DNA of 64,000 nucleotides from an uncultured Sterolibacterium sp. (GTDB lineage Bacteria; Pseudomonadota; Gammaproteobacteria; Burkholderiales; Rhodocyclaceae): NCBI GenBank assembly GCA_903832735.1, contig CAILCO010000084.1, forward strand, positions 1-64,000. Reading direction: 5' to 3'. Below the pieces are notes generated by a model. That model saw only the letters and a program-made list of their open reading frames with translations, was not told where the DNA came from and made no database searches. The position numbers and the translations under genes are program-made. Shown one piece after another: positions 39,820-44,095 of the stretch. Every line of letters begins with the position of its first letter. The stretch's first letter is position 1.

Positions 39820-41298
39820 CTACTGGCTGACCATCCTCGGCCTCTCGTCGAAGACCCAGGTGCGGGTGATATCGATGACATCGTAATTACGTTTGAGATC
39901 GGGCGGAAAGGCGGAAAAGGGCGCGCTCATCTCGACGATCCGGCGTACCGCATCGTCCATGTCCCGTTGGCCGCTGCTCTTGTCGATGTGCAGGCTGGCC
40001 AGGGTGCCGTCGCTGTTGATGCTCACGGTGACCACCAGCGGTTCATAGAACCTGTCCTTGGACACGCGCGGGTAATTCAGGCTGCCGATGCGTTCGACTT
40101 TCTGCCGCCAGCCCTCACCGTAGAAAGCTAGCTGGATGTTTCGCGGATCTGCGCCGAGGATGCCCGCCCTGCGCCGCTGCTCGCCCTCGGGCCGAAGGTT
40201 GACCGGAGGTCCCGGGAAACCGCTTCTCGCCTGATCGAGGGCACGCCTGGCGAGGGATGTCCCCAGCGACTCCGACCGCCCCGCACGCTCCTGCCCGGCG
40301 CCGCCGGCCGACTCCTGGCGCCCGCGCGCCAGCTCCGCGTCCCGCGCCCGTTCCAATGCCTCCTGACGCGCCGCAGCCGCCTGCTTCTGCGCCGCGGCCT
40401 TCGCCTGATCGAGCTTTGCCTGTTCGAGTTTCGCCTGTTCGAGTTTCGCCTGTTCGAGCTTCGCCTGTTCGAGCTTCGCCTGATCGAGCTTTGCCTGATC
40501 GAGCTTCGCCTGATCGAGTTTCGCCTGTTCGAGTTTCGCCTGTTCGAGTTTCGCCTGTTCGAGCTTCGCCTGATCGAGCTTTGCCTGATCGAGCTTCGCC
40601 TGTTCGAGCTTCGCCTGTTCGAGCTTCGCCTGATCGAGCTTTGCCTGATCGAGCTTCGCCTGATCGAGCTTCGCCTGATCGAGCTTCGCCTGTTCGAGCT
40701 TCGCCTGTTCGACCCGCTTGCGCTCCGCGGCTTCCTGGCTGGCGGGGACGGCCTGCGGCAACTCCTCAGTCTTCTTAGGCAGGATGTTGCGCACCTCTTG
40801 CGCTGGCGCCGGCTCGGCGCGAACGTCCTCTTCTCTGGCCTGCGGCGTGACGGGCACGGCCCACGTGCTTTCCGCCTCCGTGCTGAGAATTTCATTCTCT
40901 TTCGGCGCAAGCTTCGCTGCATGGACGACGGCAGGGCGCGCAGGCTCCGCGACCTCAGGCGGCTGTTCCCGTGCCTGATGCAGGCTGACCGTCGCCGCTT
41001 GCGTCAGCGCCGGAGCCGGCGCAGGCGAAGCCGCCGGTTTTTCTTGCCGCGCTTCGGGCCGCGGCCTCGGGCTGATTCGGGCCGACATCGTGCTCATGTC
41101 CAGTTCCGTCGCCGCGATCAGTGCCGGGGCCGGAGCGACCAGGACCGCCTGGATCGAGGGCGCCGCCTCACGCGAGAAGGCCGACCACGGCAAACCATTC
41201 GTTGGTTCGCCGAATTGCAGCGAAATGATCAACGCATGGAACAGCAGACTCGCAACCAGGGATCTTGGCAGGTAGCCAGCCTTGCGCGCGTTGGGCAT
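39820..41298 (-). CDS. TonB-family energy transducer-like protein with long KL(E/D)QA repeat linker
   Basis: N-terminal TM (SLVASLLFHALIISLQF), Pro/Ala/Glu-rich linker, pentapeptide repeats, C-terminal TonB-type domain (YPRVSKDRFYEPLVVTVSINSDGTLASLHIDKSSGQRDMDDAVRRIVEMSAPFSAFP). Confidence 0.85.
   Translation of the reverse strand: MPNARKAGYLPRSLVASLLFHALIISLQFGEPTNGLPWSAFSREAAPSIQAVLVAPAPALIAATELDMSTMSARISPRPRPEARQEKPAASPAPAPALTQAATVSLHQAREQPPEVAEPARPAVVHAAKLAPKENEILSTEAESTWAVPVTPQAREEDVRAEPAPAQEVRNILPKKTEELPQAVPASQEAAERKRVEQAKLEQAKLDQAKLDQAKLDQAKLDQAKLEQAKLEQAKLDQAKLDQAKLEQAKLEQAKLEQAKLDQAKLDQAKLDQAKLEQAKLEQAKLEQAKLEQAKLDQAKAAAQKQAAAARQEALERARDAELARGRQESAGGAGQERAGRSESLGTSLARRALDQARSGFPGPPVNLRPEGEQRRRAGILGADPRNIQLAFYGEGWRQKVERIGSLNYPRVSKDRFYEPLVVTVSINSDGTLASLHIDKSSGQRDMDDAVRRIVEMSAPFSAFPPDLKRNYDVIDITRTWVFDERPRMVSQ
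40405..40710. repeat. 15-bp tandem repeat (about 20 units) encoding KL(E/D)QA
   Basis: Repeated GAGCTTCGCCTGTTC / GAGCTTCGCCTGATC units on the + strand; translated minus-strand array counted as 20 KL[ED]QA units after VEQA. Boundaries approximate. Confidence 0.95.
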
Positions 41299-41361: not shown

Positions 41362-43086
41362 TCACCCCGCATCGCCTCCGTCGCGATCGACGATCGTCGG
41401 AACCGCGGAGGCGAACCTGGCGTTGGAAAGATCGACGCCGATCAGCCGGGAAACGCGGATCGGGGTCCCCGCCTCCTGGAATTTCTCGATCGCGGTGTGC
41501 GCCGCCCGGTCGGCCACGGTCGCCCTGCTGCGCAGCCGCACGTACTCGGCCCAGGAAGAAATGATGAAGCGTTCGACGAATCGTCCCTCTTCCGCAATGT
41601 CGGCGAATACCCGCCAGCTCATGGCGCCGTTGCGGCGCCGGGTCGGCTCCACGGCGCGGATGGCGTGCAGGAATTCCTCGCGTTGCGCGCGCGGAATCCG
41701 GTATTCCACCTGGACCAGGACCGGGCCATCGTCGGCCATCGGTTGAAGCGCCATGGCCAGTTCCGGTAGTTGGAATCCGGGCGTCACATCCGCCTCGCTG
41801 CCCAGGACCACGCGAATCCGGTAGCTCAAGCCCTGCATGATGACTAGGGCCAGCGCCGAAATGGCCAGCGCGACATGCGTTCCCGTCGCCGACGCCAACG
41901 TACCCCAGAGTATGCTGCCTACGGCCAGGCTGGCCTGAACCGCGACGATGCTGGTGCCCACCGCCCGCGCCCGCACCCAGGCCGGGGCGGTGCTCTGGGT
42001 GCCGGCCGTCAGGCTGGCGAAGACGCACACCCAGGCCATGCCCGCGGCGTATGTTCCCAGCACCGCGAGGACCGTGGAATCGGTGGCGGCGATCAGCAGG
42101 ATGGCCAGGATCCACAGCAGGATGGCCGAGAGCACGACCGTATGCAAAGGCCGGCGACGCAACTGCGATGGGATCGAAATCGCCCCGGTCACCGCGCCCA
42201 GCCCGAACCCCGCGGAGAGCAAACCGAAGCCGCCGGCGCCGAGATGGAGCTGATCGCGAGCGAGCACGGGCAGCAGCGCCCAGAATGCGCTGGCGCAAAC
42301 AGCGAAACTGAAATTGCGGAAAACCAGCGCGCGCATTCCCGGTGAATGACGGACGAAGCGCATGCCGGATAGCACGCCGGAGAGCAGTCTTTCCGGCACG
42401 CCGGGCAAGTTGCGGGCACGCGGTTTCAACTGGCGCGCGGCGTGGATCATGATGGTGAAGCAGACGGCGCTGACGAGAAATGCGCTGCCGGAGCCCGCCC
42501 AGGCGGCAATCGCCCCAGCCAGTGCCGGACCGGCGGCGCGGGCGACATTGAAAGCCACGGCGCCGAGCGCGACGGCACGGTGCAGATCCCTGGGCGGCAC
42601 AAGTTCATTGACGTTGGCTTGCTGCGCAGGCTGGTAGAAGGTGAAACCCACCCCGACCATGAAGGTGAGCAGCAGCAGGGACGGCGGATTGATCCAGCCG
42701 GTCAGGGTGATGGTGCCGAGCGTGGCCGTGGCCACGAGCAAAACGGATTGCGCGACGAGGATGATCTTTCGTCTGTCGACGATGTCGGCCAGCGCCCCGC
42801 CGATCAGTCCGAAGAGCAGTGTCGGCGCGGTGCTCGCCGTCTGCACCAGGGCGACCATCAGCGGCGATGGCGTGATCGTCGCCATCAGCCATGCGGCCAC
42901 GGTCGCCTGCATGGTGTAGCCCAGGGCCGAACCGATGGTGCCAAAATAGAAGTGGCGGAAACCCAGGTGCCTGAGCGGCGACGATTCCTTCAGTTCGGCC
43001 AGGAGCGATGAAAACGGATTATTCACGCTGCGCTTGTGGACTCGCTTCGCCTTACCACGGCGCGATGACCTCGGCGAGCCGGGCAT
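41362..43086 (-). CDS. MFS transporter (EntS/DUF894-like) with C-terminal extension
   Basis: FRHFYFGTIGSALGYTMQATVAAWLMATITPSPLMVALVQTASTAPTLLFGLIGGALADIVDRRK. An alternative GTG start at 43026 is plausible. Confidence 0.85.
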   Translation of the reverse strand: MPGSPRSSRRGKAKRVHKRSVNNPFSSLLAELKESSPLRHLGFRHFYFGTIGSALGYTMQATVAAWLMATITPSPLMVALVQTASTAPTLLFGLIGGALADIVDRRKIILVAQSVLLVATATLGTITLTGWINPPSLLLLTFMVGVGFTFYQPAQQANVNELVPPRDLHRAVALGAVAFNVARAAGPALAGAIAAWAGSGSAFLVSAVCFTIMIHAARQLKPRARNLPGVPERLLSGVLSGMRFVRHSPGMRALVFRNFSFAVCASAFWALLPVLARDQLHLGAGGFGLLSAGFGLGAVTGAISIPSQLRRRPLHTVVLSAILLWILAILLIAATDSTVLAVLGTYAAGMAWVCVFASLTAGTQSTAPAWVRARAVGTSIVAVQASLAVGSILWGTLASATGTHVALAISALALVIMQGLSYRIRVVLGSEADVTPGFQLPELAMALQPMADDGPVLVQVEYRIPRAQREEFLHAIRAVEPTRRRNGAMSWRVFADIAEEGRFVERFIISSWAEYVRLRSRATVADRAAHTAIEKFQEAGTPIRVSRLIGVDLSNARFASAVPTIVDRDGGDAG

Positions 43087-44095
43087 GCGTATGAACCAGG
43101 CGATCGGGCTCCTGCGCCGACATCATGGCGCTGTCGCCCGCCCCGGTGAGCACCGCCACGACGCGCACACCGGCCGCACGGCTGGCCTCTATATCGACCG
43201 GGGTATCGCCGACATAGATCGCCTCATCGGCGCTCGAGCGCAATTCCCTCAGCCCCTTCAGGAGGCCCTCGGGGTCCGGCTTGCGTCGGGAGACGTCGGC
43301 GCCGAGCACGACGCAGTCGAAGCGCTCGAGGATGCCGTCCTCGCGCAGCAGTTCCAGCACTTCCGGCCGGGCGCCGCTGACGATGCCCAGCACGATGCCC
43401 TGCCGCGTCAGCGCATCGAGCGTCTCGGCCAGCCCCGCGAACACCCGGCCATGCTCGCGCAAGGTCTCGGGCCACTGACGGGCGGCATGGGCGGACATCG
43501 CCGCGATGATGGCCTCGCCGTCCGTGCAATCGTCCGGCACGACGGCCTTCCAGAAGTTGCCCCCGGTCGCCAGCGAATGGCGCACATGCGCCTCGGTCAC
43601 TTCGAAGCCATACTGCCGGGCGGCAATTCGCGCTATCTCCAGGTAGGCGCCGACGGAGTCGACCAGCGTGCCATCGATATCGAAGAGTACCGTTTTCGCC
43701 TTGAGCGGACCGCACAGTTCCAGGCTGAGTGGGCTGCCTTCGGCCAGGGAGAGATGCCGGCGCAGCGGCAGAGCCGAGACAACCTCGACCTTGTCTTGCG
43801 GATAGGCCGCCAGGTCCGGCAGCACCACCGCTGCCGGGATCCGGCCGTTGACCCGCACCGGATAACAACGGGCGCTGCAAAAGGCGTCATCCGCCGCCGC
43901 CATGGCCAGTCCCGGCGTGTTGCGCCAGTTCCGCCAGCGCTGCCGGTTGTCCTCGTCGCCGAGCGCGAGATTGACCGTGCCGGGATAAGGATCGATCCCG
44001 GCCAAAGCGATCAGCTGTTGCCGCACCCAGGCAATCTGCGTGAACTCCGCGGCCTGCCCCAAGCCGCACACCAAGCGCCCTTCGAGCAGCGTCAT
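43052..44095 (-). CDS. fusion protein: archaeal-type CTP-dependent riboflavin kinase domain (DUF120) + HAD-family phosphatase
   Basis: N-term MTLLEGRLVCGLGQAAEFTQIAWVRQQLIALAGIDPYPGTVNLAL...CYPVRVNG...AAVVLPDLAAYPQDKVEVVSALPLRRHLSLAEGSPLSLEL; C-term KTVLFDIDGTLVDSVGAYLEIA...GIVSGARPEVLELL...RKPDPEGL...IYVGDTPVDIEASRAAG. Confidence 0.85.
   Translation of the reverse strand: MTLLEGRLVCGLGQAAEFTQIAWVRQQLIALAGIDPYPGTVNLALGDEDNRQRWRNWRNTPGLAMAAADDAFCSARCYPVRVNGRIPAAVVLPDLAAYPQDKVEVVSALPLRRHLSLAEGSPLSLELCGPLKAKTVLFDIDGTLVDSVGAYLEIARIAARQYGFEVTEAHVRHSLATGGNFWKAVVPDDCTDGEAIIAAMSAHAARQWPETLREHGRVFAGLAETLDALTRQGIVLGIVSGARPEVLELLREDGILERFDCVVLGADVSRRKPDPEGLLKGLRELRSSADEAIYVGDTPVDIEASRAAGVRVVAVLTGAGDSAMMSAQEPDRLVHTHARLAEVIAPW

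Follow-up and report, generated by a model that had tools for sequence, protein, structure and literature searches.

A gene joining an archaeal-type riboflavin kinase (DUF120) domain to a HAD phosphatase, and the association of bacterial DUF120 proteins with UbiX and UbiD

The window, a 64,000 bp stretch of a Sterolibacterium contig, contains a fused gene at 43052..44095 on the negative strand. It encodes a protein of 347 amino acids. In brief, the N-terminal part is a DUF120 (RibK-type) domain, PF01982, the CTP-dependent riboflavin kinase family (residues 9-125; 43721..44071, negative strand), and the C-terminal part is a HAD-IA phosphatase, HAD_2, PF13419 (residues 136-315; 43151..43690, negative strand). 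The open reading frame begins with ATG, and a Shine-Dalgarno-like GGAG lies 10 bases upstream. The AlphaFold (AF2) model of the whole fusion protein has a pLDDT of 95.7 and a pTM of 0.93. A first-pass annotation made from the sequence alone had placed a DUF120/RibK domain and a HAD phosphatase in one protein, and profile, sequence and fold searches confirm this.

Downstream of the fusion gene is an MFS_3 exporter gene (PF05977; 41362..43026, negative strand). Its probable GTG start lies 25 bases past the fusion stop codon, and the two genes are likely co-transcribed. The frame at 39820-41298 encodes a protein with long AKLDQ/AKLEQ-type repeats followed by a TonB-like C-terminus. Neither ubiX nor ubiD was found beside the fusion gene or elsewhere in the window. 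The exporter, an Hsp20 gene and the other neighbors were considered as clues to function and set aside, as they are not conserved at three loci of related genes (L050, L042 and L044).

The match to PF01982 in a Pfam scan of the fusion protein scores 82.8 bits (E 2.5e-23), against a gathering cut-off of 25. A phmmer search with the DUF120 half retrieved the solved riboflavin kinases MJ0056 (1e-8) and Thermoplasma RbkR (2e-7), and a search of solved riboflavin kinases with a 21-member profile reached 8e-25. Modeled alone, the DUF120 half gives a pLDDT of 92.5 and a pTM of 0.86. The top Foldseek matches of this model are 5TRD (TM 0.85) and 2VBU/2VBV (TM about 0.78; 0.79 for 2VBU), which is the RibK fold. 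The fusion protein scores below the NCBIfam equivalog cut-offs for riboflavin kinases (42.9 versus 168 bits for ribK_Meth; 68.9 versus 279 bits for PRK14165).

A residue comparison of PF01982 members showed that T40 and N42 (T-x-N) and E104 are invariant and that R112 is found in at least 90% of the members. We take T-x-N to be the metal-binding motif, and the roles of T-x-N and of the conserved Glu and Arg are presumed from the structure of MJ0056. The window protein keeps GxG, T40/N42, E104 and R112. Compared with archaeal RibK, the bacterial members retain GxG, T-x-N and the Glu of the IE/VE motif, and almost all of them also have the Arg of the LR motif. The outcome named as refuting in the first-pass annotation, which included loss of nucleotide and metal ligands across all homologs, did not occur: the metal-binding and acidic kinase residues are retained. 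In the archaeal GxGEGR nucleotide loop GxG is kept in the window protein, whereas GEGR reads GQAA. The Arg of this loop is also missing from some archaeal members, and its EG is kept in stand-alone bacterial members but altered in the fusions. Most bacterial members lack the full archaeal GEGR loop, the Thr before a YPxDK stretch (KTY/RTH segment) and the Glu after LR. A Cys (C73 in the window protein) and the YPxDK-type stretch itself are present in bacterial members and absent from the five archaeal sequences compared; the Cys is invariant among the UbiD-linked bacterial DUF120 members. As far as residues can tell, the bacterial pattern would agree either with a kinase whose pocket is altered or with a derivative that handles prenylated FMN (prFMN).

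The HAD_2 match of the C-terminal half scores 116 bits (E 2.7e-33), and the HAD motifs are intact: DIDGT (139-143), VSG (239-241), RRK (270-272) and GDTPVD (296-301). Foldseek matched this half to 3D6J (TMt 0.82). Its closest named relatives are the phosphoglycolate phosphatase and Bacteroides pyrophosphatase families, and it falls below the curated cut-offs of both (TIGR01449, 105.8 versus 180 bits, for the phosphoglycolate phosphatase). In a tree of 23 HAD domains the fused HADs lie to one side of 14 background HADs, with long branches and a background that was picked by similarity to the window. This tree does not settle whether the HAD partners in the two fusion orders described below would have a common origin.

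Is the fusion protein the riboflavin kinase of the cell? The genome encodes an ordinary Flavokinase (PF01687, ribF) on contig C69, which is the sole PF01687 match of the genome, and thus the fusion is an extra gene. Flavokinase genes were also found in ten other DUF120-bearing genomes checked, as a partial match in one of them (G357). Replacement of RibF by DUF120 was rejected, since none of the DUF120 genomes checked lacks a Flavokinase gene, and the fusion protein is probably not the housekeeping riboflavin kinase.

PF01982 is rare in this group of bacteria. Matches were found in 8 of the 369 class genomes, weak and partial ones in two cases, and in 2 of 399 genomes of a phylum-wide draw. 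No DUF120 relatives were found in the phage collection. The DUF120-HAD order occurs in the window, at L050 (71% identity), at L049, where the contig end truncates the gene, and at L042 of genome G120. The reverse order, HAD-DUF120, occurs in G357, G262, G150 and three more genomes of one family. A third kind, histidine phosphatase-DUF120, is encoded in a Bacillota genome (L061, 1999-3048; PF00300 E 2e-57, PF01982 E 3e-24). The histidine phosphatase of L061 is alpha-ribazole phosphatase-like, and its host genome has 12 UbiD genes. Bacteria thus encode three kinds of DUF120-phosphatase fusion besides stand-alone DUF120. As the histidine phosphatase fold is unrelated to HAD, the joining of DUF120 to a phosphatase occurred more than once. 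In a tree of DUF120 domains the four N-terminal fusions do not group together.

Weak PF01982 matches in G180 and G681 (L008 and L040) lack the T-x-N motif and look like a separate group; the frame in G180 runs into a glycosyltransferase-like region. The sequences suggest that this divergent PF01982-like domain may be a separate family.

The first-pass annotation had offered a convergent kinase/phosphatase pairing on flavin or another phosphorylated metabolite, or a repurposed DUF120 sensor domain controlling the HAD. A pairing linked to flavin still explains the data best, and the three kinds of fusion add weight to it. A DUF120 domain that senses flavin or a nucleotide and regulates the phosphatase would agree with the partly changed kinase residues, and archaeal DUF120 domains are also fused to DNA-binding regulators (L064-L067; PDB 5TRD). 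The sensor reading is nevertheless less supported, because DUF120 also exists alone inside catabolic operons, among them ubiX operons. The phosphatase partners moreover have two unrelated folds, a pattern more in line with chemistry on related metabolites than with a single allosteric design. We regard a sensor as unlikely.

Prenylated flavin serves as a cofactor in reactions that add CO2 to aromatic rings or remove it from them. PF01982 and UbiD were both searched for in the same set of 369 class genomes. At least four UbiD genes were found in 7 of the 369 genomes, and these seven include all six genomes in which the DUF120 domain is complete (Fisher p = 2e-12; 1e-7 with families collapsed). 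The weak matches in G180, G681 and G216 (partial, sub-threshold) were omitted from this count; adding those that belong to the class set, G180 and G216, gives p = 6e-11. The exception is G368, which is UbiD-rich (at least eight copies) and has no PF01982 match. The six genomes span four families, three of them belonging to one family, so shared ancestry alone is insufficient to explain the association. Among genomes with the DUF120-HAD order there are 11 UbiD genes in the genome of the window, 14 in G120 and 30 in the genome of L050; among those with HAD-DUF120 there are nine in G357, five in G262 and five in G150. The Bacillota genomes with DUF120 have 12 (G932) and six (G933), and 148 other genomes from the phylum of G932 have at most five each.

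At all 12 distinct loci examined, L047 and L060 being counted as one locus, the stand-alone proteobacterial DUF120 gene shares an operon with ubiX and with ubiD paralogs. The gene directly follows ubiX at 11 of these loci and a ubiD at L041. The operons are of the phenylphosphate-carboxylase type, with UbiD paralogs, the ppc delta HAD, UbiX, DUF120, often a PNPOx-like or NUDIX gene, and a PaaK-like ligase. The annotated plasmid pAZKH of Azoarcus sp. KH32C encodes ppcB, ppcD, ppcA, ppcG, UbiD, UbiX, DUF120 and a NUDIX hydrolase, with ubiX and DUF120 (WP_015451796.1) overlapping by 4 bases. This plasmid independently confirms the ubiX-DUF120 operon pattern.

Other genes recur in these operons. 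NUDIX hydrolase genes lie beside ubiX or DUF120 (L098, 12452-12997; L041, 8730-9464; L091, 7096-7689), and it is possible that their products act on DMAPP or FAD. A PNPOx-like gene lies right after DUF120 at L051 (10359-10910), with equivalents at most stand-alone loci; a prFMN reductase or maturase is a possible role for its product.

The fusion genes have a more varied context. HAD-DUF120 lies immediately downstream of a ubiD in all three fusion-bearing genomes of one genus (G357, G929 and G930); the identity of this UbiD was confirmed, and the gene differs from those of the stand-alone operon type. In two genomes a small conserved protein is encoded directly downstream of the HAD-DUF120 that lies beside ubiD (L043, 8950-9390; L096, 5533-6039), and its L043 copy has no Pfam match. 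The fusion does not adjoin ubiX or ubiD in G120, in G262 or at L050. In G120 the stretch read of the ubiX/phenylphosphate cluster contains no separate DUF120, and the fusion is the sole DUF120 of this genome.

The association of DUF120 with UbiX and UbiD is the main result of this work and goes beyond what the first-pass annotation had proposed. It is strong but not unlimited evidence, since it is a correlation and the stand-alone bacterial members are close kin from a single operon type. The same kinship, and the location of the window fusion away from ubiX and ubiD, would suit a by-product of lifestyle, in which anaerobic degraders of aromatics gain both gene families and the fusion protein acts on an unrelated phosphorylated metabolite. 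We consider this improbable, as the association recurs in four families of the class, in two phyla and in several gene arrangements.

In the genome of the window, ubiX is located on contig C83. It adjoins an isopentenyl-diphosphate isomerase gene, with UbiD genes on either side (L089, 8309-9665, the isomerase gene being directly upstream of ubiX); the isomerase passes the NCBIfam equivalog cut-offs. The arrangement looks like a dedicated cluster for supply of prFMN substrates. The pairing of isomerase and ubiX, together with the pyrophosphatases among the relatives of the HAD half, would be in keeping with a HAD that makes dimethylallyl monophosphate (DMAP) from DMAPP, the fusion then supplying both UbiX substrates, FMN and DMAP. 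PaUbiX is DMAP-specific and has Phe181, and the His-type UbiX of O157 and the Gln-type UbiX of A. niger are able to use DMAPP (PMC6541611). At the position of F181, UbiX has His in the fusion genomes, whereas in the stand-alone operons it has Gln. As these two types accept DMAPP (PMC6541611), a supply of DMAP is not required by that criterion. A DMAPP phosphatase, weakened by this residue test, appears very unlikely.

With the observed domain identities, folds, catalytic motifs, both fusion orders, co-presence with RibF and the strong UbiX/UbiD association in view, we suggest that the fusion protein is an accessory flavin kinase/phosphatase that serves the prFMN (UbiX-UbiD) system, to which we give a probability of about 0.5. 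The RibK half would be a kinase, presumably with CTP as donor. Its most likely substrate is riboflavin, or a form of the cofactor at the riboflavin level, which it would phosphorylate to the FMN level that UbiX needs. The HAD half most likely dephosphorylates a flavin or a precursor: FMN, spent prFMN, or the pre-riboflavin ribitylaminouracil phosphate. Between them, the two halves would provide UbiX with new or recycled FMN, a direction of flux that we infer, and UbiX would prenylate that FMN for use by the cell's many UbiD decarboxylases.

Alternatively, the DUF120 domain may bind or re-phosphorylate the prenylated flavin itself, in rescue, maturation or delivery of the cofactor, much like LpdD or PhdC, which have other folds, with the HAD clearing damaged cofactor. 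The association is with prFMN users and not with general flavin genes, the domain departs from its archaeal counterparts at several residues, the Cys is invariant in UbiD-linked bacterial members, and LpdD and PhdC are known as accessory prFMN proteins (PMC10865409, PMC13040415). The T-x-N metal site and the conserved Glu and Arg are nevertheless retained, as a kinase would retain them, and we hold this alternative to be rather doubtful.

For the bacterial DUF120 proteins as a whole, we lean slightly towards a dedicated and previously unrecognized part of prFMN metabolism. In this reading a kinase, either alone or joined to a phosphatase, would make, rescue or recycle the FMN/prFMN pool for UbiX and UbiD, and it would have evolved as an archaeal-type RibK domain was repeatedly fused to phosphatases whose folds are unrelated. 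UbiD enzymes catalyze reversible aromatic carboxylation, which is central to anaerobic degradation of phenol and other aromatics and has drawn interest for CO2 fixation. The enzyme is often difficult to obtain in active form, since the supply of its cofactor and the maturation step are only partly understood. A conserved RibK-type gene that overlaps ubiX in a phenylphosphate-carboxylase operon, and whose annotation goes no further than DUF120, is a concrete candidate for a missing supply or recycling step, and the fusions suggest that removal of phosphate is part of the same step. No paper linking a riboflavin kinase with UbiX/UbiD was found in the open-licence PMC literature; a report elsewhere is possible.

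Among known systems, LpdD and PhdC resemble the fusion protein in the helper role proposed for the UbiX-UbiD system. The fold of LpdD is proteasome-chaperone-like (PMC10865409), PhdC is a maturase that binds flavin (PMC13040415), and neither is described as RibK-like in the available text of these papers. Phosphoglycolate phosphatase and the Bacteroides pyrophosphatase agree with the C-terminal half in fold and in catalytic motifs, whereas the window HAD is fused and scores below the family cut-offs. The plant FMN hydrolase/riboflavin kinase also joins a HAD phosphatase to a riboflavin kinase. Its kinase has the RibF/Flavokinase fold (PF01687), for which the Pfam scan of the fusion protein gave no match. 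The convergence with the plant enzyme that the first-pass annotation had proposed stays an analogy, because the kinase fold differs. RibK of Methanocaldococcus jannaschii, MJ0056, has the same Pfam domain, the same fold (TM about 0.8 to 2VBU/2VBV) and the same GxG, T-x-N, E and R positions. Identity in the fold alignment is 22%, however, the GEGR loop and several conserved residues are changed, and the window protein is bacterial, fused to a HAD, and found in an organism that already has RibF. In RbkR of Thermoplasma acidophilum (3CTA/5TRD), the best structural match (TM 0.85), the RibK domain is likewise one half of a two-domain protein; its partner is a DNA-binding winged helix, whereas the partner in the window protein is a phosphatase.
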